From Clostridia bacterium (GTDB lineage Bacteria; Bacillota; Clostridia; Christensenellales; Aristaeellaceae): a stretch of DNA of 64,000 nucleotides. Positions 34,004 to 57,607 of this stretch are shown in pieces (positions within the stretch are counted from its first letter, which is position 1; each line of letters opens with the position of its first letter). Made by a program: the position numbers and the translations under genes. The notes below the pieces were generated by a model that saw only the letters and a program-made list of their open reading frames with translations, was not told the origin of the DNA and searched no databases. The stretch is taken from NCBI GenBank assembly GCA_017532155.1, contig JAFXJP010000035.1, positions 1-64,000 on the forward strand, in the 5' to 3' direction.

Positions 34004-35089
34004 ATGAAATTTGACGCAAAAACCGGCCTGGCGCTGGAGCTTTACGGCGGCAGCTGGCCCGAGCCGGCGGGGCATCTGCAGGGCGCAGTGGCGGATGACG
34101 AAAACAAATATCTGTACATGTCCTTTACCGACCGGCTGGTGAAGGTGGATATGCATACGGGTGAGATCGTAGGCAGCGTGACGGGCCTGCTTGCCGGCAG
34201 CATTTATGGCGGCGGCGCGCATCTGGGCGATCTGGCCTTCCGCGACGGCAAGGTGTACGGGTCGCTGGAGTATAAGGCGACGGAAAAGTTTTATATCGCG
34301 GTATTTGACGTGAGCAAGATCACCGGCATGGATATTGATTATAAAACGCCCGGCGTGCTGACGACCATGTATATGGAAGAGGTCGTGAAGGATTATCAGG
34401 ATGAGCTGGACGCGGGCGAGCATATCAACGGCCATGTGACGCTGGGGCATAAGCACGGCTGCTCGGGCATTGACGGCATCACCTTTGGCCCGCTGCCCGG
34501 CGATAACAGCGGCAAAATATATATGACGGTGGCTTACGGCGTGTACCGTCACGAGGAGCGCACGGATAACGACTATCAGGTGATCCTTGCCTTTGATCCC
34601 GATCAGTTTGAGGGCGCGTATTTTGATCAGAACAATCCCCATGAGATTGGCCCGAAGCTGTATAAGAAGATGTTTGCCTTTACTGGAAATACCTCTTACG
34701 GCGTGCAGAATCTGGAATATGACCGTGTGACGGGCGATTACTGGATGATTGTGTACGAGGGCCGCAAGGAAGGATTTGATAACCGCCCGGTGTATGTGCT
34801 GGACGGCAAAAAGGCGCCGGTGGAAATGGAGCTCAGGCTTGGCCGCGAGCAGGTGTACGGCACGGTGCGCGGCGAGGTATTGAGCCTCAAGGAGGCCGGT
34901 ACGCTGCATGAGGCAAGCGGCGTGTGGGGCATCCCGCAGATGCCGCTGACGGCGGACAAGGGCTTTATCTCGCTGGGCAATGATTATTTTTATGTTGCCG
35001 ACGCGGGCAAGAAGGATGACATGCAGTATGGCTATATGCGCCTGATGAAGCTCGACCGCACGGATTACACCTTCCACTGCGTTGAATAA
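34004..35089 (+). CDS. Beta-propeller-like protein of unknown function
   Basis: 361 residues, no signal peptide. Repeated short beta units suggest a propeller: AVADDENKYLYMSFTDRLVKVD, KVYGSLEYKATEKFYIAVFD, KIYMTVAYGVYR, YWMIVYEG, and YFYVADAG. GHKHGCSGIDGITFGP has His and Cys residues that might bind metal. No enzyme family was recognised. AAAGGAG precedes the start and a consensus promoter lies upstream. It is alone; a 16-base perfect palindrome and a weak terminator follow. Confidence 0.72.
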   Translation: MKFDAKTGLALELYGGSWPEPAGHLQGAVADDENKYLYMSFTDRLVKVDMHTGEIVGSVTGLLAGSIYGGGAHLGDLAFRDGKVYGSLEYKATEKFYIAVFDVSKITGMDIDYKTPGVLTTMYMEEVVKDYQDELDAGEHINGHVTLGHKHGCSGIDGITFGPLPGDNSGKIYMTVAYGVYRHEERTDNDYQVILAFDPDQFEGAYFDQNNPHEIGPKLYKKMFAFTGNTSYGVQNLEYDRVTGDYWMIVYEGRKEGFDNRPVYVLDGKKAPVEMELRLGREQVYGTVRGEVLSLKEAGTLHEASGVWGIPQMPLTADKGFISLGNDYFYVADAGKKDDMQYGYMRLMKLDRTDYTFHCVE

Positions 35090-36414: not shown

Positions 36415-36444
36415 TTGCCAAAGATGCTTGCAACGTGATACAAT
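36415..36444 (+). promoter_or_regulatory. Promoter of the apbE-rnf operon
   Basis: TTGCCA (36415-36420), 18-base spacer, TACAAT (36439-36444), 47 bases before apbE. No FMN riboswitch (RFN) features were seen between promoter and gene. No other strong promoter was noticed before rnfC. Confidence 0.6.
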
Positions 36445-37605: not shown

Positions 37606-38211
37606 ATGAGTCTGATCCGTCTTGAGGACATGGCGGCATTTGACGGCGAAACAGCGGTATGCCTGGGCACGTTTGATGGCGTGCATCTGGGGCATCAGGC
37701 GCTGGTAAGCCGCACCGTAGCCGCAGCCCGTGCGCAGGGGCTTATACCATGCGCCTACACTTTTGACCTGCCACCCGCGAGCGTGTTTGCCAAAGGGGGA
37801 AGCGTGCAGGTGCTCTCGACCCTGGAGGAGAAGGCAAAGCTCCTTGAGGGTCACGGCATCCAGCTGGTGGCTTACAGCCATTTTGACCAGACGGTGGCGG
37901 CGAAATCCGCCGAGGCGTTTTTTGAGGATATTCTGATGAAAACGCTGCATGCCCGTCACGTGGTAATTGGCTTTCACTATCATTTCGGTCAGTTCGCCCG
38001 CGGCGATGCGCAGTATATGCGCGCGCTGTGCGAAAAAGCCGGCGTAGGGCTGAGCGTTGTGCCGCCCGTGCGCCTGAGCGACGGCGAATTGGTATCCAGT
38101 ACGGCCATCCGCGAATATCTGCGGCAGGGTGACCGCGCTGGCGCGCAAAGGATGCTCAATCGCACTCTTTCCGCAAGGGAAGAAGAGCTGCTTGGAGGTA
38201 AGGATCTATGA
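37606..38211 (+). CDS. Stand-alone FAD synthetase (FMN adenylyltransferase) domain
   Basis: 201 residues that match only the N-terminal half of bifunctional RibF. CLGTFDGVHLGHQAL holds the nucleotidyltransferase HxGH-type motif; GFHYHFGQFARGD and SSTAIREYLRQGD are the other conserved boxes. The C-terminal riboflavin kinase half is missing, and the gene ends cleanly by overlapping the next start (ATGA). So it should make FAD from FMN and ATP, but not FMN from riboflavin. Its place after apbE suggests dedicated supply of FAD for flavinylation. How FAD reaches ApbE outside the membrane is not shown. Confidence 0.85.
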   Translation: MSLIRLEDMAAFDGETAVCLGTFDGVHLGHQALVSRTVAAARAQGLIPCAYTFDLPPASVFAKGGSVQVLSTLEEKAKLLEGHGIQLVAYSHFDQTVAAKSAEAFFEDILMKTLHARHVVIGFHYHFGQFARGDAQYMRALCEKAGVGLSVVPPVRLSDGELVSSTAIREYLRQGDRAGAQRMLNRTLSAREEELLGGKDL

Positions 38212-41200
38212 ACAAAAAGTTGCCCGCATGGATCGTGCTGACGGTCATCGCGGTGGTGGCGGCGCTGGCGCTGGCCTTCACCCATGACAGCACGAAAGAC
38301 CGCATCGCCGCCCTGGAGGCGGAAAAGGCCGTGGCCGTGCGCCAATCTCTGCTGCCCGACGCTGCTTCCTTTAATAAGGTAGAAGGCGTGGACGCGATTG
38401 CTGGCGCGACCATCACGACCAACGCGGTTGTTGACGCGTTCAACGAGGCGTATGCGCAGCTGGAGGGCAAGGCCGGTACTGCTACCGCGTCTGCCAAGGG
38501 CTTTGCCGGCCCGGTCCAGGTGGATATCGTCACGGATGAAACGGGCGTTGTGACCGACATGAAGATCGGCCAGAATGCTGACTTTAACGAAACCGCCGGC
38601 TTTGGCCTCAAGGCCAAGGAAGACGCTGCGTTTGCCCAGCAGTTTGTTGGCAAGAGCAGCGCTGTGGCTGTTGGTGACTTTGAAGGCGCCGTGTACGAAG
38701 GCGTGAACGCCGACGGCGAAGTGATCGGCTATGTCACCACCACGACTGTGACCGGCTTTGCCGGCCCGGTGGAAATCACCGTGGCTTCGGATAACGAAGG
38801 CCTGCTCTACGGCATTAACGTGGGCGGCGCTGCTTTCGAAGAGACCCCCGGTCTTGGCGCCAAGGCCAAGGAAGCTGCCTTCATGGATCAGTTCCAGGGC
38901 AAGCAGCTGCCGGTTGACCTGACCAAGAACGAGGGCGAAATTGACGCCATCACCGCTGCGACCATCACCAGCAGCGCGGTTGTTCGCGGCGTCAACCAGG
39001 CTGGTTCCGCCATCGGCGCGCTGGCTGGCTTCAGCATTGAGCCTGCTGCCTCCGTCAATGAGATGGGCGGCAACCGCTACAATACCGCCACCAAGGGCTT
39101 CGCCGGCAACGTATACGTCGAGCTGCAGCTGGACGATAACGGCGTGATCACCGAGATCATCATCGGCGATGACAGCTTTGCCGAGACCGCCGGCTACGGC
39201 GCCAAGGCGAAGGAAGAAGCCTTCTATGGCCAGTTCATCGGCAAGAGCGGCACCATCGTGTATGGCGAGGGCGTGGACGCGATCGCGGGCGCGACCATCA
39301 CCAGCAATGCGGTGCTGACTTCTGTCAACAATATTCTGCTGTATCATGAAGATCCCGTGGCCTTTGCCGCTGCGCAGGCTGCTGAGGAAGAAAAGGCTGA
39401 AGAGCCCGCTCCCGCTCCTGTGACTGGCGCGAATGAATACGCTGTCAAGGGCGAGGGCCTGACTGGCAAGATTGACATCGTCGTCACCCTGAATGATGAC
39501 GGCACGATCGCCAATGTCGCCGTGAACGGCACCGATTCCGATATGGACGCCGCCTTCCTGGCCAACTGCCAGAATGACGCGTTCCTGGGCCAGTTCGTTG
39601 GCAAGACCATTCCCGTTGAGGGCATCGACGTAGTCGCCGGCGCGACCGTCAGCTCCAATGGTATCATCAACGCTGTGAACACCGTCGTTCCCGCTGCTGC
39701 GGAAGAACCCGCTGTCGAAGCGCCTGCTGCTGAGGAGGTTACCGGCACCGAGTACCGCGCCTCTGCGGACGGCTTCACGGGCCTGGTGACGGTGGCTGTG
39801 GTTGTGGCCGAGGACGGCACGATCGCCAAGGTTTCCGTCAAGGGCACGGATTCTGAATATGACGAAGCGTTCGTCGCCAAGTGCGACACCGACGCTTTCC
39901 TGGGCCAGTTCGTTGGCAAGACCATCCCTGTTGACGGCATTGACATCGTGGCCGGCGCGACCGCCAGCTCCAATGCCATCATCAATGCGGTGAACTCTGT
40001 TGTGATTGCTACGGAAGAACCCGCTGCCGAAGAACCCGCTGTGGCTGGTACCGAGTACACCGTGCAGGGCGACGGCCTGACCGGCAAGATCGACCTGACC
40101 GTGACCGTGGCCGAAGACGGCACGATTGCGAAGGTCGTTGTAAATGGCACCGACTCTGACATGGACAGCGCTTTCCTGGCCAAGTGCGACGAAGCCTTCC
40201 TGTCTCAGTTCGTCGGCAAGACCATCCCCGTTGAGGGCATCGATGTTGTCGCGGGCGCGACCGTCAGCTCCAACGGCATCATCAATGCTGTGAACACTGT
40301 GGCTCCCGTTGCTGCGGAAGAACCCGCTGCCGAAGAACCCGCTGTGGCTGGTACCGAGTACACCGTGCAGGGCGACGGCCTGACCGGCAAGATCGACCTG
40401 ACCGTGACCGTGGCCGAAGACGGCACGATCGCGAAGGTCGTTGTGAACGGCACCGACTCTGACATGGACAGCGCTTTCCTGGCCAAGTGCGATGAAGCCT
40501 TCCTGTCTCAGTTCGTCGGCAAGACCATCCCCGTTGAGGGCATCGATGTAGTCGCGGGCGCGACCGTCAGCTCCAATGGCATCATCAACGCTGTGAACAC
40601 TGTGGCTCCCGCTGCTGCGGAAGAGCCCACCGTGGAAGAGCCCGCCGTGGAAGAACCTGCTGTTGAAGCCAAGACCGGCCATGTCGTTGCTTCCGCTCAG
40701 GGCTTCGCGGGCCCTGTGGCTGTGGACGTGACCGTGGAAAACGGCCTGATCACCGCGCTGAAGATCGGCGACGAGCAGTTCTCCGAGACTGCGGGCTTTG
40801 GCGCCAAGGCGCTGGAAGAGGCCTTTGTCAATCAGTTCATTGGCAAGGCGCTGCCGATCGAAAAGACGGACATTGACGCCATTGCCGGCGCCACCATCAC
40901 CACCGATGCTGTGATCGCCGCGCTGAATAAGGCGTATGAAAAGGTTGGCGCTGAAGAGGAAGCTCCGGCTGTGGAAGCGCCTGCCGCTGAAGAAGTAAAG
41001 GGCACTGAAGTGAAGGGCACGGCCCAGGGCTTCATTGATCCTGTGAATGTTACCGTGATCGTGGCCGAGGACGGCACGATTGCCAAGGTAACTGTGGAAG
41101 ATTCCACCTCTGCGACGGACGCTGCTTTCGTGCATAAGTGCCAGGAAGACGCGTTTGTCAGCCAGTTTGTTGGCAAGACCGCTCCCGTGGCGGAAGAAGA

Positions 41201-41717
41201 TATCACCGTGATTACCGGCGCGACCGCCTCCTCCAAGGCTGTGGTTGCTGCGGTGAACAACGCGGCTGCCAGCCTTGCTCCCGTTGTGGAAGAGCCCGCT
41301 GCTGAAGAGCCTGCTGCTGAAGAGCCCGCTGCTGAAGAGCCCGCTGCTGAAGAGCCTGCTGCTGAAGAGCCTGTTGCTGAAGAGCCCGCCGTTGCGGCTG
41401 TGACCTCTGCCAAGGCTGCTGCTGATACGCTGGGTAAGTTCTATGCCCGCCATACCGTGCAGGGCTTCGCCGGCCCCGTGACCGTGCTGGTCAACGTGGA
41501 TAACAACGGCAAGATCTGCATGATCGAGATCGGCAGCGAACAGTTTGCCGAGACCGAGGGCTTTGGCATGAAGGCGCTGGAAGAAGCTTTTGTTAACCAG
41601 TTCATCGGCAAGACCTGCCCTGTGCAGGCTGCTGATATCGATGCTATCGCCGGTGCGACCATCACCACCAATGCCGTGCTGGAAGCGCTGAATGCGGCCT
41701 ACGACCTGGTGAAGTAA
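38208..41717 (+). CDS. RnfG-like membrane-anchored polyflavoprotein with ten FMN-binding motifs
   Basis: 1169 residues; ordinary RnfG has about 200. One N-terminal membrane helix (about 7-24) is followed by TKDRIAALEAEKAVAVRQSLLPDA as in RnfG. A first FMN-binding segment is inserted, then the rest of an RnfG-like domain (GEVIGYVTTTTVTGFAGPVE, ETPGLGAKAKE). Seven to eight more FMN-binding domains follow, joined by Ala/Glu/Pro linkers. Candidate FMN-carrying threonines are T68, T363, T480, T585, T685, T786, T896, T1006 and T1151 (all in GAT); T252 lies in TAAT. Almost all the protein should lie outside the membrane. It overlaps the FAD synthetase gene by four bases. The likely role is electron transfer from Rnf through a chain of covalent flavins. 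Confidence 0.85.
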   Translation: MNKKLPAWIVLTVIAVVAALALAFTHDSTKDRIAALEAEKAVAVRQSLLPDAASFNKVEGVDAIAGATITTNAVVDAFNEAYAQLEGKAGTATASAKGFAGPVQVDIVTDETGVVTDMKIGQNADFNETAGFGLKAKEDAAFAQQFVGKSSAVAVGDFEGAVYEGVNADGEVIGYVTTTTVTGFAGPVEITVASDNEGLLYGINVGGAAFEETPGLGAKAKEAAFMDQFQGKQLPVDLTKNEGEIDAITAATITSSAVVRGVNQAGSAIGALAGFSIEPAASVNEMGGNRYNTATKGFAGNVYVELQLDDNGVITEIIIGDDSFAETAGYGAKAKEEAFYGQFIGKSGTIVYGEGVDAIAGATITSNAVLTSVNNILLYHEDPVAFAAAQAAEEEKAEEPAPAPVTGANEYAVKGEGLTGKIDIVVTLNDDGTIANVAVNGTDSDMDAAFLANCQNDAFLGQFVGKTIPVEGIDVVAGATVSSNGIINAVNTVVPAAAEEPAVEAPAAEEVTGTEYRASADGFTGLVTVAVVVAEDGTIAKVSVKGTDSEYDEAFVAKCDTDAFLGQFVGKTIPVDGIDIVAGATASSNAIINAVNSVVIATEEPAAEEPAVAGTEYTVQGDGLTGKIDLTVTVAEDGTIAKVVVNGTDSDMDSAFLAKCDEAFLSQFVGKTIPVEGIDVVAGATVSSNGIINAVNTVAPVAAEEPAAEEPAVAGTEYTVQGDGLTGKIDLTVTVAEDGTIAKVVVNGTDSDMDSAFLAKCDEAFLSQFVGKTIPVEGIDVVAGATVSSNGIINAVNTVAPAAAEEPTVEEPAVEEPAVEAKTGHVVASAQGFAGPVAVDVTVENGLITALKIGDEQFSETAGFGAKALEEAFVNQFIGKALPIEKTDIDAIAGATITTDAVIAALNKAYEKVGAEEEAPAVEAPAAEEVKGTEVKGTAQGFIDPVNVTVIVAEDGTIAKVTVEDSTSATDAAFVHKCQEDAFVSQFVGKTAPVAEEDITVITGATASSKAVVAAVNNAAASLAPVVEEPAAEEPAAEEPAAEEPAAEEPAAEEPVAEEPAVAAVTSAKAAADTLGKFYARHTVQGFAGPVTVLVNVDNNGKICMIEIGSEQFAETEGFGMKALEEAFVNQFIGKTCPVQAADIDAIAGATITTNAVLEALNAAYDLVK
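40021..40626 (+). repeat. Recent tandem duplication, period 303 bp, in the polyflavoprotein gene
   Basis: Bases 40021-40323 and 40324-40626 are nearly identical and encode the same 101-residue FMN-binding unit (motif threonines T685 and T786). Few synonymous differences are visible, for example gtaaatggc versus gtgaacggc. The unit before it is related but more diverged. Confidence 0.9.
41289..41392 (+). repeat. 15-bp repeats encoding EEPAA linker
   Basis: About seven copies of gctgaagagcccgct-like 15-mers encode EEPAA/EEPVA units between the ninth and tenth FMN motifs. This is a low-complexity acidic proline-rich linker, likely flexible or wall-spanning, and prone to slippage. Confidence 0.9.
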
Positions 41718-41739: not shown

Positions 41740-42087
41740 ATGATTCATGCAATTGAAACGTTTCTTCATGATCTGATTCACTTGAGCGCCCTGGCGCTGG
41801 AAACCGTTGGTGTGTTCATCATCCTGGGCACCGCCATCCGCACCGGCATCGCCGTGACCAAGCATAAGGGCCATGTGGGCCTGATGCTGGGCAAGGGCAT
41901 CGCCCTGGCGCTGACTTATCTGCTGGCCAGCGAAGTGCTGCACACGCTGATCGCCAAGGACGTTACTTCTCTTCTGCTGGTCGCCATCACCATGGTGCTG
42001 CGCGCTGCGATGACGCTTCTGATTCACTGGGAAACCCAAGCTGAAGAAAAGCACATCAAGGAAGAAGAATCTCATAAGGCTGAATAA
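41740..42087 (+). CDS. DUF1622 membrane protein
   Basis: 115 residues with three hydrophobic helices (about 14-34, 50-68, 76-95). GKGIALALTYLLASEVLHTL and the following membrane segment match the DUF1622 family; the C-terminus is His/Glu/Lys-rich. The function is unknown. AAGGAG precedes the ATG. It stands inside the flavin-Rnf operon between the polyflavoprotein and the NusG-II protein, so an accessory role in membrane electron transport is possible. Confidence 0.82.
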   Translation: MIHAIETFLHDLIHLSALALETVGVFIILGTAIRTGIAVTKHKGHVGLMLGKGIALALTYLLASEVLHTLIAKDVTSLLLVAITMVLRAAMTLLIHWETQAEEKHIKEEESHKAE

Positions 42088-42117: not shown

Positions 42118-42522
42118 ATGAAAAAAAGGGATTTGCTCCTGATCCTGTCGGTTGTGATCATTGCAGCCCTGCTGCTGGGAAGCACGATGCTTCTCAACCG
42201 CGGCAAGGTGGCGACGGGCCAGATGAAGGTGTATGTGGACGGAAAGCTGCACGATACCGTGGCGCTGCATAGCGGCCGGGACTATACCGTGCAGCAGGAG
42301 GATGGCAGCGTGAACGTGATCCGCATGACGGAAAACGGCTTTTACATGCTCTCTTCCACCTGCCACAACCAGCTGTGCATTGATCAGGGAGAGGTCAACG
42401 CCGACAACTGGGGCATGCGCTCGCTGGGTACGCACGTCATTTGCCTGCCCAATCGCGTGGACGTGGAGCTGGTGCTCACGGAGGATAAGACCGTGATTGA
42501 CCCGGACGCGCCCGACGTGTAA
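42118..42522 (+). CDS. NusG domain II-containing membrane protein
   Basis: 134 residues. One membrane helix (about 7-27) precedes an external beta domain: MKVYVDGKLHDTVAL, and STCHNQLCIDQGEV with a CxxxxC pair, then HVICLPNRVDVEL with a third Cys. This is the NusG_II layout seen beside Rnf and apbE genes in Clostridia. It has nothing to do with transcription NusG proper. GGGGGAAAGGAG lies upstream. The role in the complex is unknown. Confidence 0.85.
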   Translation: MKKRDLLLILSVVIIAALLLGSTMLLNRGKVATGQMKVYVDGKLHDTVALHSGRDYTVQQEDGSVNVIRMTENGFYMLSSTCHNQLCIDQGEVNADNWGMRSLGTHVICLPNRVDVELVLTEDKTVIDPDAPDV

Positions 42523-42595: not shown

Positions 42596-43915
42596 TTGAA
42601 AGCTGCAACATTCCGCGGAGGCGTCCATCCGGCGCATCACAGCAAGAACCAGTCTAAGGGCCTTGCAGTGCGCGATTTTGTGACCGATGTCGTTCAGATT
42701 CCCGTGAACATGCATATCGGCGCGCCTTCTAATCCCTGTGTACAAAAGGGCGATCATGTTAAGATGGGCCAGATGATTGCCGAGCCCGTTGGATTCCTGG
42801 GTGTGCCGGTGCATGCCAGCGTTTCCGGCGAGGTGCTCGACGTGTGCCCCATGCCTTCGCTGGGCGAAAATCCCGCGATGAGCATCATCATCAAGAACGA
42901 CTTTAAGGACGAGTGGGTAGAGCTCAATCCCCTGGGCGATGTGGAAACCGTTGATCCTTCCCTGATCATCCCCGCTATCAAGAACGCGGGTATCGTGGGT
43001 ATGGGCGGCGCGTCCTTCCCCACCCATGTGAAGCTCTCCATTAAGCCCGAACAGCAGTGCGACTATATCCTGGCCAACGGCGCGGAGTGCGAAACGCACC
43101 TCACCTGCGACCATCGCCTGATGCTCGAGGAATCCAAGCGTGTGGTGGACGGCCTGCGTGCCGTCATGCGTGCTGTTGGCTGCAAGACCGGTATCATCGG
43201 TATTGAAGACAACAAGCCCGACGCCATCGAAGCCATGCAGAAGGCCTGCGAGGGCCGCGAAGGCGTGCGCGTGCAGGTGCTGGCCACCAAGTACCCCCAG
43301 GGCGGTGAAAAGCAGCTGATCGAAGCCATCACCGGCCGTCAGGTTCCCACCGGCGGTCTGCCCATTGGCTGCGGCTGCATCGTGGTGAACGTTGCCACCT
43401 GCTCTGCCATCTGCGACGCCATCACCCTGGGCAAGCCCCTTGTTGAGCGCATTACCACCGTTACCGGCGGCGTGCGTCAGCCCGCCAACCTGCGCGTGCG
43501 CATTGGTACCCTGGCGGATGCGCTGATCGGCGAGTGCGGCGGCTTCTCTGTGGAGCCCGGCAAGATCTTCTCCGGCGGCGCCATGACGGGCTTCTGCCTG
43601 CCCGATACCCACCAGCCCATCACCAAGGCAGGCGGCGGCATCGTGGTGATGAATGAAGCCGAAGCGCTGACCGGCGAAGAAAGCCCCTGCATCCGCTGCG
43701 GCAAGTGCCAGGAAGTGTGCCCCATCGGCCTCAAGCCCCTGCAGCTCAAGCTTGCCTGCGATAACGAGGACTTTGACAAGGCCAAGAAGCTGAACCTGAT
43801 GGACTGCACCATCTGCGGCAGCTGCTCGTTCATCTGCCCGGCCCGCCGTCATCTGACGATTTCCTTCAAGATTGCCAAACAAAAGATCGCCGCGCTGGCG
43901 AAAAAAGGAGGCTAA
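42596..43915 (+). CDS. rnfC: Rnf electron transport complex subunit C
   Basis: 439 residues from a TTG start six bases after AAAGGTGGGA; a longer frame overlapping the previous gene is not used. RnfC carries the NADH site and two 4Fe-4S clusters at the cytoplasmic face. Visible are the RNFC N-terminal KAATFRGGVHP, the nucleotide-binding GMGGASFPTHVKL, the SLBB region, and ferredoxin motifs CIRCGKCQEVCP (about 365-376) and CTICGSCSFICP (about 404-415). First core gene of rnfCDEAB. Confidence 0.94.
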   Translation: MKAATFRGGVHPAHHSKNQSKGLAVRDFVTDVVQIPVNMHIGAPSNPCVQKGDHVKMGQMIAEPVGFLGVPVHASVSGEVLDVCPMPSLGENPAMSIIIKNDFKDEWVELNPLGDVETVDPSLIIPAIKNAGIVGMGGASFPTHVKLSIKPEQQCDYILANGAECETHLTCDHRLMLEESKRVVDGLRAVMRAVGCKTGIIGIEDNKPDAIEAMQKACEGREGVRVQVLATKYPQGGEKQLIEAITGRQVPTGGLPIGCGCIVVNVATCSAICDAITLGKPLVERITTVTGGVRQPANLRVRIGTLADALIGECGGFSVEPGKIFSGGAMTGFCLPDTHQPITKAGGGIVVMNEAEALTGEESPCIRCGKCQEVCPIGLKPLQLKLACDNEDFDKAKKLNLMDCTICGSCSFICPARRHLTISFKIAKQKIAALAKKGG

Positions 43916-43921: not shown

Positions 43922-44845
43922 ATGAGCAAACTGGTTATCTCTTCCGCGCCGCACATTAAAACGGCGGATACCACGCAGCGCCTGATGCTCAATGTGATCA
44001 TCGCTCTGCTGCCCTGCGCCATCGCGGGCGTCATCTTCTTCGGCCTGAACGCCGCCATCGTGCTGGCTGTGGCCGTTTTGAGCGCCGTGCTGGCTGAATT
44101 TGTCTGGCAGAAGCTCGCGCATCAGAAGGTTCGCATTGCGGATTGCTCCGCTGCGCTGACCGGCCTGCTGCTGGGCCTGTGCATCAGCCCCGTCACCCCC
44201 TGGTGGGTGGTGATGATCGGCTCCTTCTTTGCCATCATCGTCGTCAAGCAGCTCTTCGGCGGCATCGGCGACAACTTCCTCAACCCCGCGCTGACCGCGC
44301 GCGCTGTGCTGCTGGCCTCCTGGCCCGCTTACCTGACCACCCATATCGCCGCCAACGGCTTTGCGGATGTTGTCACCAGCGCTACGCCTCTGGCCTCTTC
44401 CTTCTCTCAGATGGATCTGTTCCTGGGCAATGTGCCCGGCGCCATCGGTGAAACCAGCAAGATCGCCATCCTGATCGGCTTTGCGTATCTGCTGTGGACC
44501 CGTACCATCCGCTGGGAAATCCCTGTGTTTGTGGTGCTGTCCACCATGGTCACCACCCTCCTGCTGGGCGGCGACGCCATCATGAGCGTCCTCACCGGCG
44601 GCGTGCTCTTCGGCGCTGTATTCATGGCGACCGACTATGTGACCAGCCCCATGAACCGCTGGGCGCAGATCGTTTATGCCATTGGCATCGGTTTGATCAT
44701 TGTGGTCATCCGTAACTTTGGCGATTATCCCGAAGGCGTGACCTACGCCATCCTGCTGATGAACATTGCCGCGCCTCTGCTGGACCGCGTGATGCCCGAA
44801 GGCAAGGTATACGGCCACTCCAAGAAGAAGGAGGCCAAAGCGTAA
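43922..44845 (+). CDS. rnfD: Rnf electron transport complex subunit D
   Basis: 307 residues, about nine helices. RnfD carries a covalent FMN; the expected site is Thr155 in VTSATPLA. ISSAPHIKTADTTQRLMLNVI at the start and FGGIGDNFLNPALTARAVLL are typical. AAGGAGG precedes the ATG. Its stop shares a base with the rnfE start, leaving no space for rnfG, which normally lies here. Confidence 0.95.
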   Translation: MSKLVISSAPHIKTADTTQRLMLNVIIALLPCAIAGVIFFGLNAAIVLAVAVLSAVLAEFVWQKLAHQKVRIADCSAALTGLLLGLCISPVTPWWVVMIGSFFAIIVVKQLFGGIGDNFLNPALTARAVLLASWPAYLTTHIAANGFADVVTSATPLASSFSQMDLFLGNVPGAIGETSKIAILIGFAYLLWTRTIRWEIPVFVVLSTMVTTLLLGGDAIMSVLTGGVLFGAVFMATDYVTSPMNRWAQIVYAIGIGLIIVVIRNFGDYPEGVTYAILLMNIAAPLLDRVMPEGKVYGHSKKKEAKA

Positions 44846-45462
44846 TGAGCGAGAAGAAAAACAGCCTGGGCCGCGTATTTATGAACGGCGTGCTCAGCGA
44901 GAATCCCACCTTCCGCCTGGTGCTGGGCACCTGCCCCACGCTGGCGGTCACCACCAGCGCTATCAACGGCCTGGGCATGGGCGCTGCGGCTACGTTCGTT
45001 CTGCTGTGCTCCAACATTGTTATCTCCCTGCTGCGTAATTTCATTCCCAGCAAGGTGCGCATCCCCGCGTTCATCACCATCATCTGCACCTTCGTTACCA
45101 TCATCCAGCTGGTGATGCAGGCCTATCTGCCTTCTCTGTACGAGAGCCTTGGCATCTTCATCCCGCTGATCGTGGTAAACTGCATCATCCTCGGCCGCGC
45201 CGAAGCCTTTGCCAGCAAGAACCCTGTGGTGGATTCTGCGGTGGACGGCCTGGGCATGGGCCTTGGCTTCACCCTGGCGCTGACGCTGATCGGCTGCGTG
45301 CGCGAGCTGCTGGGCAACGGCAGCCTCTTTGGCACGGCTGTACTGGGCACTTCCTTTGAGCCCATGCTGATTGCTGTGCTGCCGGCCGGCGGTTTCATGG
45401 TGTACGGTCTGCTGCTGGGCATCATCAATGCCATTGGCAACAAGCGGAAGGAGGCCAAATAA
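44845..45462 (+). CDS. rnfE: Rnf electron transport complex subunit E
   Basis: 205 residues, six membrane helices. It pairs with RnfA in the membrane. ENPTFRLVLGTCPTLAVTTSA and NCIILGRAEAFASKNPV are typical of RnfE/NqrD, and conserved cysteines near the helix ends (GTCPTLA, NCIILGR) can bind the intramembrane Fe-S cluster. The ATG overlaps the rnfD stop; AAGGAGG lies just before. Confidence 0.95.
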   Translation: MSEKKNSLGRVFMNGVLSENPTFRLVLGTCPTLAVTTSAINGLGMGAAATFVLLCSNIVISLLRNFIPSKVRIPAFITIICTFVTIIQLVMQAYLPSLYESLGIFIPLIVVNCIILGRAEAFASKNPVVDSAVDGLGMGLGFTLALTLIGCVRELLGNGSLFGTAVLGTSFEPMLIAVLPAGGFMVYGLLLGIINAIGNKRKEAK

Positions 45463-46035
45463 ATGAATATCTGGCTCTTCATGATCAGCTGCATTCTGAC
45501 CAATAACTTCATTTTCTCCAAGTTCCTGGGCATTTGCCCCTTCCTGGGCGTATCGAGCAAGGTAGGCACGGCCGCTTCCATGGGCCTGGCTGTTACCTTC
45601 GTTATGACCCTGGCTTCTCTGATCTGCTACATGCTCAATGCCTGGGTGCTGGTGCCCCTGGGCCTGGAGTATATGCAGACCATCGTGTTCATTCTGGTTA
45701 TTGCCTCTCTGGTGCAGTTCGTTGAAATGTTCCTCAAGAAGGCGATGCCCGCTATCTATTCTGCCCTGGGTATCTATCTGCCCCTGATCACCACCAACTG
45801 CGCGGTGCTGGGCGTGGCGACCCTGAACGTGTCCGAGGGCTACGGCCTGCTGCTGAGCGTGCTGAACGGCACCTTCTCCGCACTGGGCTTCCTGCTGGCG
45901 ATCGTGCTGATGGCCGGCGTGCGTGAACGCCTGGAGAGCAGCAAGATTCCCGCCTGCATGAAGGGCTTCCCCATCAGCCTGGTGACTGCCGGCCTGATGG
46001 CGATTGCCTTCATGGGCTTCAACGGTCTGGCATAA
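45463..46035 (+). CDS. rnfA: Rnf electron transport complex subunit A
   Basis: 190 residues, six helices. Typical sequences are NNFIFSKFLGICPFLGVS and YLPLITTNCAVLGVA, each with a conserved cysteine for the RnfA/E cluster. AAGGAGG precedes the start directly at the rnfE end. Confidence 0.95.
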   Translation: MNIWLFMISCILTNNFIFSKFLGICPFLGVSSKVGTAASMGLAVTFVMTLASLICYMLNAWVLVPLGLEYMQTIVFILVIASLVQFVEMFLKKAMPAIYSALGIYLPLITTNCAVLGVATLNVSEGYGLLLSVLNGTFSALGFLLAIVLMAGVRERLESSKIPACMKGFPISLVTAGLMAIAFMGFNGLA

Positions 46036-46048: not shown

Positions 46049-46834
46049 ATGTCTATTCTTTATGCTGGTCTGGTGCTGGGCGCTATCGGCCTGATCTTCG
46101 GCCTGGTGCTCACCTTTGCCGCCAAGGCTTTCCATGTGGATGTGGACGAGCGCGTGGAGCAGGTGCGCGAGTGCCTGGCCGGCGCTAACTGCGGCGCCTG
46201 CGGATATCCCGGCTGCGACGGCTTTGCCAAGGCTGTGGTCGAGGGCAAGGCGGCTGTTACCGGCTGCACTCCTGCCGGCAATGAAGGCGCGAAGAAGATC
46301 GCTGCCATCATGGGCGTGGAAGCCGCTGATACCGAGCGCAAGGTTGCGCGTGTGCTCTGCCAGGGCGTGAAGGGCGAAGCCAAGGAAAAGTATGCGTACG
46401 ACGGCTATCAGAGCTGTCTGGCGGCTGCCGGTATGGCCGGCGGTCCCAAGGATTGCCGCTTTGCCTGCCTGGGTCTGGGCGATTGCGTGTTCCATTGCGC
46501 GTTCGGCGCCATCACCCTCAAGGATGGTGTTGCTGTCATCGATCCTGACAAGTGCACGGCCTGCGGCAAGTGCGTGGAAGCCTGCCCGCGCCATGTCATC
46601 TCTCTGCTGCCCGCCAGCCAGAAGGTGATCGTGCGCTGCCACAACACCGACAACGCCAAGGCCGCCCGTGCGGTTTGCACCAACGCTTGCATTGGCTGTG
46701 GCCGCTGCAAGAAGGAATGCGAATATGACGCGATCGTTGTGGAAAACAACGTTGCGCGCATTGATGCGTCCAAGTGCACCGCTTGCGGCAAGTGCGCCAG
46801 CGTTTGCCCCTGCAACTGCATTGTGGTAGAATAA
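46049..46834 (+). CDS. rnfB: Rnf electron transport complex subunit B
   Basis: 261 residues. An N-terminal membrane helix is followed by the Fe-S domain with NCGACGYPGCDGF and the later Cys in GCTPAG, then ferredoxin repeats with CTACGKCVEACP, CIGCGRCKKEC and CTACGKCASVCP. RnfB takes electrons from ferredoxin. AAGGAGG precedes the ATG at 46049; an ORF start at 46004 inside rnfA is not used. Last gene of the operon, with a strong terminator. Confidence 0.95.
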   Translation: MSILYAGLVLGAIGLIFGLVLTFAAKAFHVDVDERVEQVRECLAGANCGACGYPGCDGFAKAVVEGKAAVTGCTPAGNEGAKKIAAIMGVEAADTERKVARVLCQGVKGEAKEKYAYDGYQSCLAAAGMAGGPKDCRFACLGLGDCVFHCAFGAITLKDGVAVIDPDKCTACGKCVEACPRHVISLLPASQKVIVRCHNTDNAKAARAVCTNACIGCGRCKKECEYDAIVVENNVARIDASKCTACGKCASVCPCNCIVVE

Positions 46835-48725: not shown

Positions 48726-51629
48726 TTATTTATATTCCACGGTCAATACAGGCTCATATTCAGAGCCCTTGCCGTAGATTTGAGTGTAGGCGGGCGAGAA
48801 GGTGTCGGAATACTCGCTGCGCGGCTCGAATACACCAATGGCCTGGCCGGCCTGGATGGCGGGGATCAGGTTGGTCACGTCGTAGGTTGCTTCCGTTTCG
48901 CGCTTCAGGCTGCCGATGGGATAGACTGCGGCGGCGGTGAAGGAAGGCGTGAGCGTGGAGGTGAAAGCAGATTCTGCCAGGGCGACGCTGCCCAGATAAA
49001 TGGGTACGGCATTGGACCAGCCGCCCGATGCTCGCCGCAGGGTGAGAGAGGCGGATTTGACGGTCTTGCCGCTGAGCGCGCTGGCAGCATCGGCAAACCA
49101 CATAGCGCCCGTGCGCCAGCCATTGACGCCGCCGGTGTACTCGCCATAGCGGCCTTGCGAGAAGGTGGTAGCCTGGTCATCGCGGATGCGGCGCTCGCCG
49201 TACAGATAGGTACAGTGCTTGCTGATGGAGAAGGTTTTGATGACGTAGGAGGGCGCGACGTATTCCATGCCGCCGGGCGTGGGCGTGGCAGAGGCTGCGC
49301 CAAGCAGCGTTCCGCTTGTATTGGCCAGCCCGTTTGCCGATGCCGGGCACGTTCCTTCAACGTATCCATGCGCGCCGCGATAGGCCAGAATGCTGCGGCC
49401 AAGATTGGCGTTGGTGGTGTAATCGCCGTCAGTATAGCCGCCGATGCACTTGAGGCAGAAGAAAGTGCCGCGCTGGAAGGTGATGGCGTTGGCATGCGTG
49501 TATTCAATGCTGCAGCCCTCGACCACAGAATTACACTCGGTGATCAACAGTCCTGTGCCCGTGCCGGAGGAGGAGCTGGTGCGATTGCGGTAGCCGCTGA
49601 TCTGCAGGTTTTTCAGGTGCACATGCGGGCAATAGCGGATGTAAACCGGATAATTGACGCTGCTGTCCGGGTAAATGGATACATCGCCGCGCGCTGCGGC
49701 GGTCAGCGCGATGCCTGAGCAGCTGTGCACATGAATTGTACCGATGATTTTTACGCCCGGATCAAAGGCAAGCTCCAGCGTTCTGCCCATAAAACCGGAG
49801 ATTACGATATCTTCAAGATACGTTCCGGCTGGGATGGTAAGCGTGGTGTCCTGCGTCAGGTACCTGGGCAGCGCATCGACAGACGCCTGCATGCTGCCCC
49901 GCCAGGCAGCTGTAGCGGAGGGATGCGCCAGGATGATGTTGGGCGCGGAGAAGCTTTCGGTGACCACCACGCGCTTGGCAGCCAGGCCTTCAGGATCCAG
50001 CGACATGATTTCGTTGCCGTCATCCATGCCTCGGATTTGCAGATCGTTGGTGGCGATGTTGATTTCGCCGCCGACCATGTTGATGGCATCTTCCGTTAGC
50101 TCCATGTGGCTGTGACTGCCGTCAAGCTTGCCGGCCAGCACCAGCACGGCGGCATTGGAGGAAAGCTCAAGCCCTGCGCCGAAATCGTCGGTGACCTTGC
50201 TGGCGTCAACCGATTTATCGCTGAGAACGCTGCCTTCGATGCGATTGTTATTCTGCGAGAGGCTGTTGGCCAGTTGATTGAGCGCGCGCACGATGGAAAA
50301 TTCCGAGCCGCCTACGATCAGTCGGTCGGTGGAGAGCTTTCCGGCGGTGATGCTGTCGGCGGACAGGCTGCCGATTACACCGCTTTCGGAGGTGATGGCG
50401 CCCAGGGCGATTTTATCGGCGGTAATGGAGCGGGCGCTGATTTTTTCGGCGTCCACCGCACCGGCGGCGATATGGCGCGCGGCGATGATACCGTCGGTCA
50501 GGGCGTTGGTGGACAGCTTTCCGCTGGAGGTGATGATGCGCGGCAGGTGCACGCCGCCGTTTGACATTTCGCAGCTCAGGTGGGCGGAAAGGGCGCCTTG
50601 AAAGAGCAGCTGCTGAGAAAAGAGCAGGGCGGGATGCGAAATGCCTTTGAGATCGGTGATGGTGAGAAAATCGCCGATTTCGAGCGTGGGATCGCCGCAG
50701 AAGGTGAGCGAAAACGGCGTGAAGGAAAAGCCGCTGAGCGATTGGCAGAGCTGCTGCATCAGCGGCTGCAGCGCGGCGCTGTCTGCGTGGAAGAGCGGGT
50801 TATCATCGATTGTGAGCATGTTGTCATCACCGGCAGGCAGCGTGTCATCCAGGGCGATTTCTTCAAAGGCGCCGGAGTGCCGGCCGCGCGGAATAACACG
50901 CAGACGATTGAAGGAAAAGCAGGTATCTTCCAGCGTAAGCGCTTGCAGATCGGAAGCGGCAAGCGGGCGATCCGAGGTGTGACTGAGAGGAATGAGCGCG
51001 ATGCGGTCATCCCGCGTGAGCCTTGCAAAGCAGCCCATGGCGCCGCAAACCCACGCCAGCGCCTGGCGCAGGGTGCAGCCGTCGCCCCAGTCGGGACGCT
51101 GGGGAATGAGCGTATCGGCATTGCATAGCGGCGTGCCGTTGATTGAGCAGCCGGCTTGCGCAGCAATATGCTGCAGGATGCTTTGCAGCGTGCAGGGGTA
51201 GGTCAGCTGATCGATAAACGTGAGCGCAAAGGTGTGCAGCAGCGCGTCATAGCCCGACAGCGTGACGGCGTTTTCGCCTTCGGCGGCTTCCACGTGCGAT
51301 ACGATGAAGCTGCCGGCTGGCGCGTAGAGCACATCATTTCCGGATAATACGCCGATCTCAATATGGACGTCAGCGCCCAGCAGCGTGCGGTTACCCAGAC
51401 GGGAACCGCCGCTTTGCCAGGCGCCGTCCGGGCTGAGCAGTGTGAGCGAGCCGTGCGCGGACAGCGCGCTGCCCAGCAGCATGTCGCCGCCGGAAGCGCC
51501 TTCGGTCAGATTGTAGGAGAGAATGTCATCGCCTGTGAGCGAAAAGACATAGCCGGTGGCGAGCGTCAGCGTGGCGCGGATGGAAAGCGTGCGGGCAGGC
51601 GCGGTCATGGCGGCAGAATAGGTACTCAT
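48726..51629 (-). CDS. Phage tail hub and fibre fusion protein
   Basis: 967 residues, several parts. About 1-370 resemble baseplate/tail-hub proteins (GYDALLHTFALTFIDQLTYPC, LQSILQHIAAQAGC). About 375-480 are a fibre-like region with repeated 'ITADKI/ITAGKL' units. About 570-760 have many short beta strands like a pectate-lyase-type beta-helix (CSGIALTAAARGDVSIYP, HLKNLQISGYRN). The last 120 residues resemble a DNRLRE-type beta domain. So adsorption and perhaps sugar binding are combined in one protein. AAAGGAGG precedes the start. Confidence 0.78.
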   Translation of the reverse strand: MSTYSAAMTAPARTLSIRATLTLATGYVFSLTGDDILSYNLTEGASGGDMLLGSALSAHGSLTLLSPDGAWQSGGSRLGNRTLLGADVHIEIGVLSGNDVLYAPAGSFIVSHVEAAEGENAVTLSGYDALLHTFALTFIDQLTYPCTLQSILQHIAAQAGCSINGTPLCNADTLIPQRPDWGDGCTLRQALAWVCGAMGCFARLTRDDRIALIPLSHTSDRPLAASDLQALTLEDTCFSFNRLRVIPRGRHSGAFEEIALDDTLPAGDDNMLTIDDNPLFHADSAALQPLMQQLCQSLSGFSFTPFSLTFCGDPTLEIGDFLTITDLKGISHPALLFSQQLLFQGALSAHLSCEMSNGGVHLPRIITSSGKLSTNALTDGIIAARHIAAGAVDAEKISARSITADKIALGAITSESGVIGSLSADSITAGKLSTDRLIVGGSEFSIVRALNQLANSLSQNNNRIEGSVLSDKSVDASKVTDDFGAGLELSSNAAVLVLAGKLDGSHSHMELTEDAINMVGGEINIATNDLQIRGMDDGNEIMSLDPEGLAAKRVVVTESFSAPNIILAHPSATAAWRGSMQASVDALPRYLTQDTTLTIPAGTYLEDIVISGFMGRTLELAFDPGVKIIGTIHVHSCSGIALTAAARGDVSIYPDSSVNYPVYIRYCPHVHLKNLQISGYRNRTSSSSGTGTGLLITECNSVVEGCSIEYTHANAITFQRGTFFCLKCIGGYTDGDYTTNANLGRSILAYRGAHGYVEGTCPASANGLANTSGTLLGAASATPTPGGMEYVAPSYVIKTFSISKHCTYLYGERRIRDDQATTFSQGRYGEYTGGVNGWRTGAMWFADAASALSGKTVKSASLTLRRASGGWSNAVPIYLGSVALAESAFTSTLTPSFTAAAVYPIGSLKRETEATYDVTNLIPAIQAGQAIGVFEPRSEYSDTFSPAYTQIYGKGSEYEPVLTVEYK

Positions 51630-51641
51630 GCTGGGCCTCCT

Positions 51642-51998
51642 TTAGCATTCCATGAAGGACAATTCCACGTTGGTCCACACGGGCGCGCCGTCCTTCATGC
51701 GGTACAGACCGACGCTGCGCTGGGTGGAATAGGCGGTGACGGTAAGCGGTGCGCCGGTGAGGGGGTCGGGGAAGGAAAGCGTGCAGGTGGGCGCGGCATG
51801 CAGCGCTGTGAGCAGATTTTGCAGATGATCCGGCGTCATATAGGCCCAGAAAATGCTGATACGGCGCTTTACCCCGGCGCGGGAGACATGCGTAGCGCCG
51901 GAGAGCGTGGCGTGCACGGATAATTGCGCATCCTCAAAAGCCACCTGCAGCGAGGTGGGCGCAGGCGCGGAAAGGGTGTTGATGGTGAGAATGGACAT
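51642..51998 (-). CDS. Phage tail protein, distal-tail type
   Basis: 118 residues, beta-rich, no known catalytic motif. Its position between the tape-measure-like gene and the hub/fibre gene fits a distal tail or connector role; MSILTINTLSAPAPTSLQV resembles small tail proteins (DUF6711-like) of Bacillota phages. AAGGAGG precedes the start. Confidence 0.65.
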   Translation of the reverse strand: MSILTINTLSAPAPTSLQVAFEDAQLSVHATLSGATHVSRAGVKRRISIFWAYMTPDHLQNLLTALHAAPTCTLSFPDPLTGAPLTVTAYSTQRSVGLYRMKDGAPVWTNVELSFMEC

Positions 51999-52007
51999 GG
52001 TTCCTCC

Positions 52008-52433
52008 TTATCCCAGCGCCACATACGAGCCGCGCGTAATGGACTGCTGGCGGATGTTTTTGACGGTGGCGTCTGCCAGCTTCTGGCCGTCGATATATAC
52101 AGGGGCGGTGATGCGGATGGAGGAGGCGAGCTTATCAACGGCGGCGGAAAGTGTATCGGCGAGTGCGGCTTGTGCCTGCGAAAGCGCGGCGGAAAACTGC
52201 ACCTCATGCGCCTGAACGGCATGGGCCAGCACATCGCCTGCGCCGGACAAGGCGTGGGAGATGGCCTGATCCGCGGTGACTGTCAGGCGCATTTCCAATT
52301 CGGATGCGCTGGGAAAAGCGACGGCTCGGCCCATCTGCAGCCGGTCAAGACGCGTTTCCAGGGCGCTCAGATCGTTGAGCAGATTGCGCGCATCGGCTTC
52401 AAAGCGGACGGTCAGGGTATCAAGCGTCGGCAT
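52008..52433 (-). CDS. Very short tape-measure-like tail protein
   Basis: 141 residues, helical. The N-terminus (LTVRFEADARNLLNDLSALETRLDRL) and the C-terminus (ITAPVYIDGQKLADATVKNI) look like the two ends of a siphophage tape-measure protein, but the long coiled and hydrophobic middle is missing. Tape measures usually have 600 residues or more. It lies where the tape measure belongs, after the chaperone-like gene. AAGGAGG seven bases before ATG at 52433. It overlaps the upstream gene by 14 bases. Confidence 0.6.
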   Translation of the reverse strand: MPTLDTLTVRFEADARNLLNDLSALETRLDRLQMGRAVAFPSASELEMRLTVTADQAISHALSGAGDVLAHAVQAHEVQFSAALSQAQAALADTLSAAVDKLASSIRITAPVYIDGQKLADATVKNIRQQSITRGSYVALG

Positions 52434-52914
52434 GGGTAAACCTCCTTGCATAGTTTTTGAGAGCGGAGAGCATTTGCGCTTCCGTCATGGGCGCGTCGGC
52501 CCAGGAGCGGGGCGGGAGATGCGCATCCAGCTCGCGGGCAATTTCGCGGTAGCTGAGATCAAGCAGACGGCAGCTGTCCTTCATGCCGGCGCGGGCGGCA
52601 GCATCCAGCAGGCGATCCATTTCTTCCTGCGTGATGCCCTCGCGCGGAAAGCCGCTCATGTCATAGGCCTGTGCCAGCGCATCATAAAGCGGCGCAATAT
52701 CGGGCAGCAGCGTGTCAAACAGCGCGTCGGATTTGCGGCGCGTGAGGAAGGGATAGGCGTCGCACAGCGCGCAGTAAAGCAGCCAGCGCGCACCTTCCTC
52801 GCCGCTGGTGAAGAGCGTGCGCAGGGGCGCAGGGCACAATTGCTGCGTGCGCAGCAGCGCGCGGGCGGTGAAGCGCAAAGGATGCGTACGCCCGGCGATT
52901 TCTATGTAACGCAT
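52420..52914 (-). CDS. Phage tail assembly chaperone-like protein
   Basis: 164 residues, mainly helical (FTARALLRTQQLCPAPL, EEGARWLLYCALCDAYPFL). It sits between the tail tube and the tape-measure-like gene, where tail chaperones are found. No classical slippery heptamer for a -1 frameshift was noticed. Its start overlaps the tail-tube stop by one base. The assignment is by position and general look. Confidence 0.55.
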   Translation of the reverse strand: MRYIEIAGRTHPLRFTARALLRTQQLCPAPLRTLFTSGEEGARWLLYCALCDAYPFLTRRKSDALFDTLLPDIAPLYDALAQAYDMSGFPREGITQEEMDRLLDAAARAGMKDSCRLLDLSYREIARELDAHLPPRSWADAPMTEAQMLSALKNYARRFTHADA

Positions 52915-53306
52915 CAGCCAAATACCACCTTGCCGACGGCGCGCAGCACGCAGGTGAAGGCGATGGCGCTGTCTACCTGCGCCGCGCCCAGTGCGTGGGA
53001 TTTGACAAGGGCGGGGAATGTGGCCTTGACGCCATCGGGAAAGGTGATGCAGCAGGTGCCGGCAGCGCCGGTATCATAAGCGCTGCGCAGGGCGAGCTGA
53101 CCGGCTTCCCCTTTGACATGAAAGCCGGTGAGCCGGATTTCACCGGCGTCCCGGACGCCCTGCATAAACTGGCGGCAGCCGTCCGGGCTTTCCAGGGTGG
53201 TGATGTCAATCAGCTCGCTGTCGCAGGTGATTTCGCTGATGGCGGACAGCGTGCCGACGGGGGTTGCATTGAAAGTAAACGTGGTGCCAAGCGATTTGGT
53301 AGCCAT
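52914..53306 (-). CDS. Phage major tail (tube) protein
   Basis: 130 residues, beta-rich. LGTTFTFNATPVGTLSAISEITCDSELIDITTLESPDG and the ITFPDGVKATFPALV strand fit small tail-tube proteins of siphophages. AAAGGAGG precedes the ATG. Position after the completion genes fits. Confidence 0.78.
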   Translation of the reverse strand: MATKSLGTTFTFNATPVGTLSAISEITCDSELIDITTLESPDGCRQFMQGVRDAGEIRLTGFHVKGEAGQLALRSAYDTGAAGTCCITFPDGVKATFPALVKSHALGAAQVDSAIAFTCVLRAVGKVVFG

Positions 53307-53318
53307 AAAAAGCCTCCT

Positions 53319-53678
53319 TTATTGGGTGAGAATGGAAGATTGATCGCACAGCGCGCGATAACGCAGCACGCGGCGGTGCGCGCGGGTGTCATCGTCAAAC
53401 AGATCGCAGCAGTAGGTGCGTGAAAATCCGAGCGCTGTCATTTTTTCATCGGCAGAGGCAGAAAGCGCATGGGCAACCTCTGGCGTGAGCGCATAGATTT
53501 CCAGCGTGAATTCGATCTCGTGCAGATAGGGCGCGCTGTCGGCGCGGGCATGCACGTCGTTTGCCGATTCAAAAAAGATCAGGCAGGGAAACTGCGTGAG
53601 CGTGCCGGGATGCTGATAATACAGCAGGGAGTGCACGCCCTGCAGCGCGGCGAAGACGTCCTGGGTCAGATCGGGCAA
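53319..53678 (-). CDS. Phage tail terminator/completion protein
   Basis: 119 residues from a TTG start seven bases after AAAGGAGG; a longer frame upstream lacks a ribosome site. VFAALQGVHSLLYYQHPG and FPCLIFFESAND, and EIEFTLEIYA are like tail completion proteins of the DUF3168 or minor capsid type. Assigned mainly by position before the tail tube gene. Confidence 0.6.
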   Translation of the reverse strand: MPDLTQDVFAALQGVHSLLYYQHPGTLTQFPCLIFFESANDVHARADSAPYLHEIEFTLEIYALTPEVAHALSASADEKMTALGFSRTYCCDLFDDDTRAHRRVLRYRALCDQSSILTQ

Positions 53679-53741
53679 GGGATGACCTCCTTTCTGATAC
53701 AAAAAAAGGGCGGCGGATTCCTGAGAATCCACCGCCGGGGG

Positions 53742-54056
53742 TTATTTGCTCAGCTCATATAAAAAAGCAGATCGGCGTTCCCTGAGCGCGGGACGCAGAT
53801 AAGGATGCGCGGCCATACGGGAGGTGCCCAGCTCCACATAGATCGCGTGGGGATTTTGCGCGATAACATCGCCCCAAAAGCAGCCGTCCTTCTCTTCGGT
53901 ATGCGTAAAAATACAGTCGCGCAGATGTCCACCGTCGCTGCCGTCGCCGTAGGGGGTGAGGCCCTTGGCTGTTTTGGCGGCATGATCGGCAAGATTTTGC
54001 ACGGCGTGGGTCAGACGGTCTTCCAGGCGATGACGGTACAGAGTAAAGCCGTTCAC
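53742..54056 (-). CDS. HK97 gp10-like head-tail protein
   Basis: 104 residues from a GTG start that overlaps the previous stop (GTGA). An N-terminal helix (EDRLTHAVQNLADHAAKTAKG) is followed by LTPYGDGSDGGHLRDC and ELGTSRMAAHPYLRPAL, the hallmark of the gp10/tail-component family. GGAGGAAAGG precedes. Confidence 0.78.
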   Translation of the reverse strand: MNGFTLYRHRLEDRLTHAVQNLADHAAKTAKGLTPYGDGSDGGHLRDCIFTHTEEKDGCFWGDVIAQNPHAIYVELGTSRMAAHPYLRPALRERRSAFLYELSK

Positions 54057-54684: not shown

Positions 54685-54695
54685 AGGGCCTCCTG

Positions 54696-55805: not shown

Positions 55806-55820
55806 AAATGTACCTCCTGA

Positions 55821-57589: not shown

Positions 57590-57607
57590 GTGATTCTCCT
57601 TATGATT

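Follow-up and report, generated by a model that had tools for sequence, protein, structure and literature searches.

Positions 1 to 64,000 of contig JAFXJP010000035.1, a stretch hereafter called the window, come from a Clostridia bacterium of the Aristaeellaceae (assembly GCA_017532155.1) and carry an RNF operon. Its gene order is a 174-residue weak FMN_bind-like protein, apbE, a ribF-like gene, a very long gene with repeated flavin mononucleotide (FMN)-binding domains (the array gene), DUF1622, NusG_II, rnfC, rnfD, rnfE, rnfA and rnfB (Table 1). The array gene is a complete open reading frame (ORF), with GGAGG just 5′ of its ATG and a start that overlaps the stop codon of the ribF-like gene (ATGA). 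Pfam FMN_bind matches ten stretches of its product (whole-protein E = 5.1e-105, far beyond chance). The protein almost certainly serves a ferredoxin:NAD+ RNF pump as its RnfG, a subunit here lengthened by FMN-binding domains in tandem.

The predicted attachment threonines are residues 68, 252, 363, 480, 585, 685, 786, 896, 1006 and 1151, at intervals of 184, 111, 117, 105, 100, 101, 110, 110 and 145 residues. Eight sites read AGAT, one TGAT (Thr1006) and one TAAT (Thr252). A single hydrophobic helix lies at about residues 5–25 on the Kyte-Doolittle scale; past residue 40 no 19-residue window exceeds 1.6, the next best being 1.56 at residue 526. An earlier note on this DNA had counted one membrane helix and ten sites (nine GAT and one TAAT), and both counts agree with these results. 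The predicted pI is 4.05, and a check of the Cys positions found no CxxCH. The nine stretches between FMN_bind matches are 18–61 residues each and 251 residues in total, the first being part of the core domain; from residue 378 onward they are rich in Ala, Glu and Pro. Three other domains were considered and rejected: MoaF_C and Extensin_1 fell under the Pfam cut-off, and TonB_C passed it only for the whole protein, with no single stretch passing and the best one (517–549) lying inside domain 5. An antisense ORF at 37989–41453 (1154 aa), which mirrors the repeat composition of the array gene, was dismissed as a gene.

The genes rnfD and rnfE touch, with nothing between them, so the usual rnfG slot is empty. 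This direct succession was seen in all 13 fetched array-type loci that hold both genes. For comparison, a set of 58 Rnf-linked loci was used, 9 in the family and 49 outside it, of which 4 lack RnfD/E in the stretch, leaving 45; the order outside the family is D-[G]-E in 44 of these and [G]-E only in the remaining one (counted by eye). In genome-wide searches (the genome is 82.5% complete, which applies to all such searches below) the rnfD of the operon was the single RnfD match, and no other RnfG was found among the FMN_bind matches. The genome's other FMN_bind proteins are four FAD_binding_2 reductases, one C_GCAxxG_C_C protein and one small lipoprotein-like protein.

Against solved structures, phmmer aligned residues 163–265 with residues 92–198 of A. 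woodii RnfG (9eri_G, 48.8 bits) and, weakly, residues 9–62 with 19–72 (18.1 bits). The C. tetanomorphum protein 7zc6_G gave the same pattern of stalk and head, the stalk being weaker. The NCBIfam rnfG model TIGR01947 scored 246.5 bits on the whole protein (cut-off 102), a value summed over repeats, and 79.8 on the core alone. The protein does not qualify as the Na+-NQR subunit NqrC: the nqrC model reached 51.3 bits against a cut-off of 144, and the operon partners include rnfB with ferredoxin-type domains. At the same operon position, another genome of the family (G124) has a one-domain RnfG of 190 aa that scores 100.5 bits on the rnfG model, slightly below the cut-off. The N-terminal helix, stalk and FMN_bind head of an RnfG are all present, with a 97-residue insert between stalk and head, and the protein is encoded with rnfCDEAB. 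The earlier note had proposed that it takes the place of RnfG and had looked to a separate normal rnfG elsewhere as a counter-indication; none was found, and the empty D-E slot, the lone RnfD and the alignment of stalk and core to solved RnfGs bear the proposal out. Having more than one FMN_bind domain (ten stretches, one helix), the protein also probably belongs to the multi-flavinylated class, its domains presumably lying on the extracytosolic side.

In 7 of 11 same-genus genomes, residues 1–59 run nearly straight into residues 157–274, with 0–6 residues between. Since the stalk directly precedes the head in these genomes, residues 60–156 are an insert. A domain hidden Markov model (HMM) was built from 215 domains of relatives, none of them from the window. 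On the insert, HMM positions 64–87 (28.2 bits) come first, followed by positions 1–62 (61.9 bits), and rotating the insert by about 30 residues gave one full match of 98.0 bits. The swapped order of the pieces and the single match after rotation therefore indicate that, at the sequence level, residues 60–156 make up a whole FMN_bind domain whose order is circularly permuted. By ordinary domain order, the first GAT (Thr68) lies in the C-terminal part of this domain. The description of repeated FMN-binding domains in the earlier note stands for the ten Pfam stretches, but its first GAT site belongs to the permuted domain and not to an ordinary one.

The permuted insert occurs in 4 of the 11 same-genus genomes (the window, G143, G190 and G056) and in one other genus (G196, genus g30). 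A stricter automatic filter over 45 proteins recovered three of the five permuted cases, the window (G000), G056 and G190; in G143 and G196 both permuted pieces are visible but fall outside the limits of the filter. Apparent long inserts in G154 and G106 were traced to a mapping error, and the domains there are in normal order. The insert sits between the stalk and the head, and it is the head that in known RNF and NQR is believed to move back and forth from RnfA/E to RnfD (PMC12174285; this and the other papers cited are drawn on for the parts of their text that were available).

The TAAT site (Thr252) is that of the RnfG domain proper, residues 157–274. Motifs were compared in 16 array-type operon proteins (the window and 15 family loci), with 119 complete motif positions. 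The core motif is without Gly in all 16 (10 TAAT, 4 TSAT, 1 TSAS and 1 TAST). Accessory motifs of the same proteins read xGAT at 87 of 103 positions and have no Gly at 16, weak C-terminal matches being counted. The attachment residue is Thr at 112 of the 119 positions and Ser at one; six C-terminal positions in genus g30 have no attachment Thr. Thr252 itself is invariant in the 20 rows of A2 and nearly so in the 28 rows of A1. Outside the family, Ala or Ser replaces the Gly in 15 of the 45 Rnf-linked RnfGs (by eye), with open frames of 182–295 aa. Loss of the Gly is thus shared by some short RnfGs, in which presumably a single flavin does the work, and the core motif is therefore read, from these comparisons, as tolerated or tuned rather than lost; its interpretation as a dead or decayed site was dismissed. 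The absence of Gly is not a family-wide rule: in a different, canonical-type RNF (L125, genome G091), rnfD and a one-domain rnfG share one 561-codon frame (1465–3147), and its motif is TGAT.

In a fumarate reductase, changing the Gly to Ala reportedly gave about 50% flavinylation (Bertsova 2019, via review PMC12052999). The published attachment motif begins with Ser or Thr (PMC10722498, PMC12052999). The (S/T)GAT motif assumed by the earlier note holds as to the Thr, found at every site, but not as to the leading Ser/Thr, which is missing from eight of the nine GATs. A fumarate-reductase-like, exported-looking protein elsewhere in the genome (L014, 1635–3509) has TSAT at its FMN_bind site and so lacks the Gly just as the RnfG cores do.

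The FMN_bind domains of the array protein are of two types. The ETxGxG loop is retained in domains 1, 2, 3, 8 and 10 (type A) and lost in domains 4–7 and 9 (type B), which have Asp at the Thr position of the loop. In NqrC this loop lines the flavin, and ETPGLG is reported as absolutely conserved in NqrC/RnfG (PMC4348036). Retention varies among relatives: in genus g35 (G136, G152) the loop is present in 13 of 14 accessory domains, in the congeners G011, G158, G170 and G105 in 3 of 31. It is possible that type A and type B domains differ in potential. A Cys of the type-B domains was dropped as a general feature; it is present in the window and G143 and absent from the type-B domains of the other congeners compared. 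Domains 6 and 7 differ at 8 of 300 nt, and so represent a recent duplication. Compared with G143, dN/dS is 0.19 over 585 codons (permuted domain 0.16, core 0.18, domain 5 0.29, stalk 0.34), values indicating that the array protein is under purifying selection.

Forty family loci were fetched; they were picked from the better matches, so the set is biased. At least two FMN domains were found in 38 of the 40 array ORFs. In fifteen loci the array ORF is complete and rnfC lies on its strand. Full-length domain matches in these number 1 (G124), 3 (G004) and 6–11 (the other 13), giving a range of 1 to 11 at the RNF operon position in the family; Pfam counts the same number of domains or, for some rows of genera g30 and g35, as many as two fewer. 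Six complete array genes (G126, G199, G024, G154, G175 and G026) adjoin apbE in fetched stretches that contain no RNF gene. In 16 of the 40 loci the contig ends inside the array gene, as expected of repeats, and copy number in metagenome-assembled genomes (MAGs) may therefore be under-called. Two genomes of the class (G391, G470) have open frames of 360 and 556 aa.

Eight relatives were searched for FMN_bind, and six short ORFs (134–271 aa) were inspected, leaving out those of 95, 311, 313, 338 and 363 aa. Two of the six (G088, G136) lie in a second, NQR-like operon and four have no RnfD/E/A neighbour. G136 and G088 (L162 and L159) hold this NQR-like operon, with its own one-domain subunit, besides the array-bearing RNF. 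A rumen MAG (L023, 7011–13958) has an rnfD frame that also contains an FMN_bind domain and, after rnfB, encodes an FMN_bind protein of 1102 aa in which CxxCH occurs four times. The nine relatives with names are Clostridia, Clostridiales or Lachnospiraceae MAGs, several of them rumen-derived.

Upstream of the array gene, apbE and the RibF-like gene were the single genome-wide matches to ApbE and FAD_syn, and a flavokinase gave no match. The ribF stop lies at most 42 bases from the rnfG start in all 24 loci tested, overlapping it in 14. The RibF-like gene, encoding an FAD synthetase only, looks like a dedicated supply of the ApbE substrate. Seven other fetched loci carry relatives of the 174-aa protein, close either to the operon or to an apbE; its TGCT occurs in two of eight sequences, and a flavin motif was dropped as a general feature of this protein. 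DUF1622 occupies the same place in 4 of the 40 family loci, and the literature search found no paper joining it with Rnf. Promoter-like sites are in excess (9, against 3.7 in shuffles), the best lying just upstream of apbE (36415–36444), and terminator-like sites are not (13, against 11.9). A 361-aa protein encoded at 34004–35089 has no Pfam or NCBIfam match; of 10 other same-genus loci, four (G083, G143, G158 and G190) have it close to the operon. Further along the window, at 48726–58852 on the minus strand, are prophage structural genes; four of the proteins were tested, and each has a PHROGs match: terminase large subunit, portal, major head and tail protein.

Table 1. Features of the RNF operon and of its array gene (positions in the window).
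Feature	Position	Strand	Basis and remarks
Weak FMN_bind-like protein, 174 aa	35772..36296		exported-looking; TGCT where GAT expected
apbE, FAD:protein FMN transferase, 363 aa	36492..37583	+	Pfam ApbE E 1.4e-54; signal-like N-terminus by eye
RibF-like gene, FAD synthetase only	37606..38211	+	Pfam FAD_syn E 2.3e-40; proposed start
Multi-FMN-domain RnfG, 1169 aa	38208..41717	+	ATG start; Pfam FMN_bind; NCBIfam rnfG TIGR01947
RnfG membrane helix and stalk, residues 1-59	38208..38384	+	weak alignment to 9eri_G; hydropathy
Inserted circularly permuted FMN_bind domain, residues 60-156, Thr68 (AGAT)	38385..38675	+	HMM order; rotation
RnfG core (head), residues 157-274, Thr252 (TAAT)	38676..39029	+	aligns to 9eri and 7zc6 RnfG
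FMN_bind domain 3, type A (ETxGxG retained), Thr363	39084..39338	+	
FMN_bind domains 4-7, type B (ETxGxG lost), Thr480, 585, 685, 786	39444..40607	+	
FMN_bind domains 8 (type A), 9 (type B), 10 (type A), Thr896, 1006, 1151	40689..41705	+	
DUF1622 protein	41740..42087	+	Pfam
NusG domain II protein	42118..42522	+	Pfam
rnfC	42596..43915	+	Pfam RnfC_N, Complex1_51K; TTG start proposed, codons inspected
rnfD	43922..44845	+	Pfam NQR2_RnfD_RnfE E 1.7e-108
rnfE, immediately after rnfD	44845..45462	+	Pfam Rnf-Nqr
rnfA	45463..46035	+	Pfam Rnf-Nqr
rnfB	46049..46834	+	FeS and ferredoxin-type domains; profile run from 46052

The reading we prefer, with a probability of roughly 0.6, is that of an RNF shuttle bearing a tethered array of flavins, from which electrons would leave toward extracytoplasmic acceptors. 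ApbE would place FMN on most or all of the ten threonines, presumably outside the membrane. Such multi-site flavinylation is likely, and the many flavins claimed earlier are plausible given the conservation of the attachment residue and the adjoining apbE. Electrons from ferredoxin would enter via RnfB and RnfA/E and, in the manner of other RNFs, the RnfG head would carry them from RnfA/E to RnfD, RnfC and NAD+. Tethered within the range of the moving head, the added flavins could collide with the head flavin and so receive a part of the electrons, which would then pass to extracytoplasmic acceptors. An outward branch of this kind has about an even chance of being real. Candidate outlets may be the four exported-looking FMN_bind and FAD_binding_2 proteins that the genome encodes outside the operon. 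A more specific arrangement is conceivable but speculative: with a permuted flavodomain in the hinge of the shuttle, the head might hand electrons sideways to the tether and then to the array, forming a branched pump with an outward exit, the altered head motif setting its flavin apart from the array flavins.

Several observations weigh against an RNF shuttle with an outward-leading array. The genome is incomplete, the Pfam scan gives no wall-binding or wall-anchoring domain in the array protein, and Pfam recognised no terminal reductase gene in the operon. Two of the four exported-looking reductases (L013, L014) have no [STA]GAT at the FMN_bind domain. A Fer4_5 (NapH-like) membrane-type protein is encoded elsewhere in the genome, and RNF therefore need not be the sole outward donor; PF01794 and PF02683 systems were not found in the genome. 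The flavins of a three-flavin relative, SaFMN3, share one single potential (PMC10339131), which implies no built-in direction. Half of the ten domains are without the loop reported as absolutely conserved in NqrC/RnfG (PMC4348036). Eight of the sites read AGAT and one TAAT, against a published motif that begins with Ser or Thr, and no documentation of AGAT loading was found in the parts of the literature covered.

These last points, with the six C-terminal positions of genus g30 that have no Thr, would be in keeping with accessory domains that are mostly structural spacers or decaying copies without flavin. That is quite unlikely, as all ten domains keep the attachment Thr, the residue is conserved across the 16 proteins, the protein is under purifying selection and the genes for ApbE and FAD synthetase adjoin. 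It is very improbable that the protein is a separate flavoprotein whose gene lies in the operon by happenstance. The gene does stand ahead of rnfC and not between rnfD and rnfE, the genome is incomplete, and the second RNF of G091 and the NQR-like operons of G088 and G136 establish that second complexes exist in the family; against this stand the RnfG stalk and core, the empty D-E slot, the failure to find another RnfG or RnfD and the one-domain RnfG at the same position in G124.

How the array would work is a further question. The earlier note had spoken of a flavin wire, and there is enough material for an ordered stack of domains that would conduct through the wall across tens of nanometres: ten domains, each with a long axis of about 4.4 nm if like SaFMN3-D2 (PMC10339131), and the residues between matches. 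AlphaFold models of FMN_bind proteins with more than two domains are, however, often beads on a string with minimal contacts (PMC11334425), and a wall anchor was not found, which makes such a wire improbable. The lengths of the inter-domain stretches make a rigid chain of flavins unlikely, and these lengths and the single potential of SaFMN3 make 'wire' too strong a term; 'tethered flavin array' is safer. The same two features, and the reaction of reduced SaFMN3 with oxygen (PMC10339131), would also suit an electron buffer or scavenger near the membrane, storing electrons or reacting with soluble oxidants, with no path across the wall. This is possible but doubtful: Pfam and NCBIfam profiles recognised no oxidant-defence gene among the operon genes, and the variation from 1 to 11 domains at one position does not decide between the roles. 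In the preferred reading the array would be no rigid wire but a flexible relay of flavins, or a buffer for electrons, where membrane and wall meet.

The system bears on whether fermenting bacteria bleed RNF electrons outward without cytochromes. The family forms a natural series, in which the number of flavin domains at a single operon position runs from 1 to 11, and offers array length, the permuted arm domain and the Gly-less core site as separable variables.

An ordinary RnfG or NqrC shares with the window protein the N-terminal helix, stalk, FMN head and operon partners, but its gene lies between rnfD and rnfE, whereas the window gene is ahead of rnfC; outside the family, the G frame is 182–263 aa in 42 of the 45 Rnf-linked loci, and 295, 343 and 343 aa in the other three. 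Tong et al. 2023 demonstrated covalent loading of three- and four-site proteins, SaFMN3 and CbFMN4 (PMC10339131). These have tandem FMN_bind domains and flexible linkers and are loaded by ApbE, as is predicted here, but their three or four domains are more than 80% alike within a protein, whereas the window protein has ten domains of two types, together with the RnfG stalk and core. In the circularly permuted multi-FMN-bind1 proteins (Huang et al. 2024, mSystems, PMC11334425), FMN_bind pieces are likewise out of their usual order; here, by contrast, the motif and helix stand ahead of their own strand half in a self-contained insert between stalk and head.

The closest precedent is the work of Meheust et al. 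2021 (eLife, PMC8238504), who described multi-flavinylated proteins with up to 13 sites, and RNF clusters whose RnfG has several FMN-binding domains, for which a second outward path was proposed. The idea of a multi-flavinylated RnfG with such a path was thus already published in 2021. The multiheme subset reported there has CxxCH, unlike the window protein. A permuted arm domain and a Gly-less core are unmentioned in the available text of that paper, and the literature search returned neither; the supplements listing the 2021 clusters lay outside this search, and the window protein or its kin may therefore be listed there. What the present comparison of sequences adds is the permuted arm domain, the Gly-less core in array operons and the range of 1 to 11 domains at the operon position.
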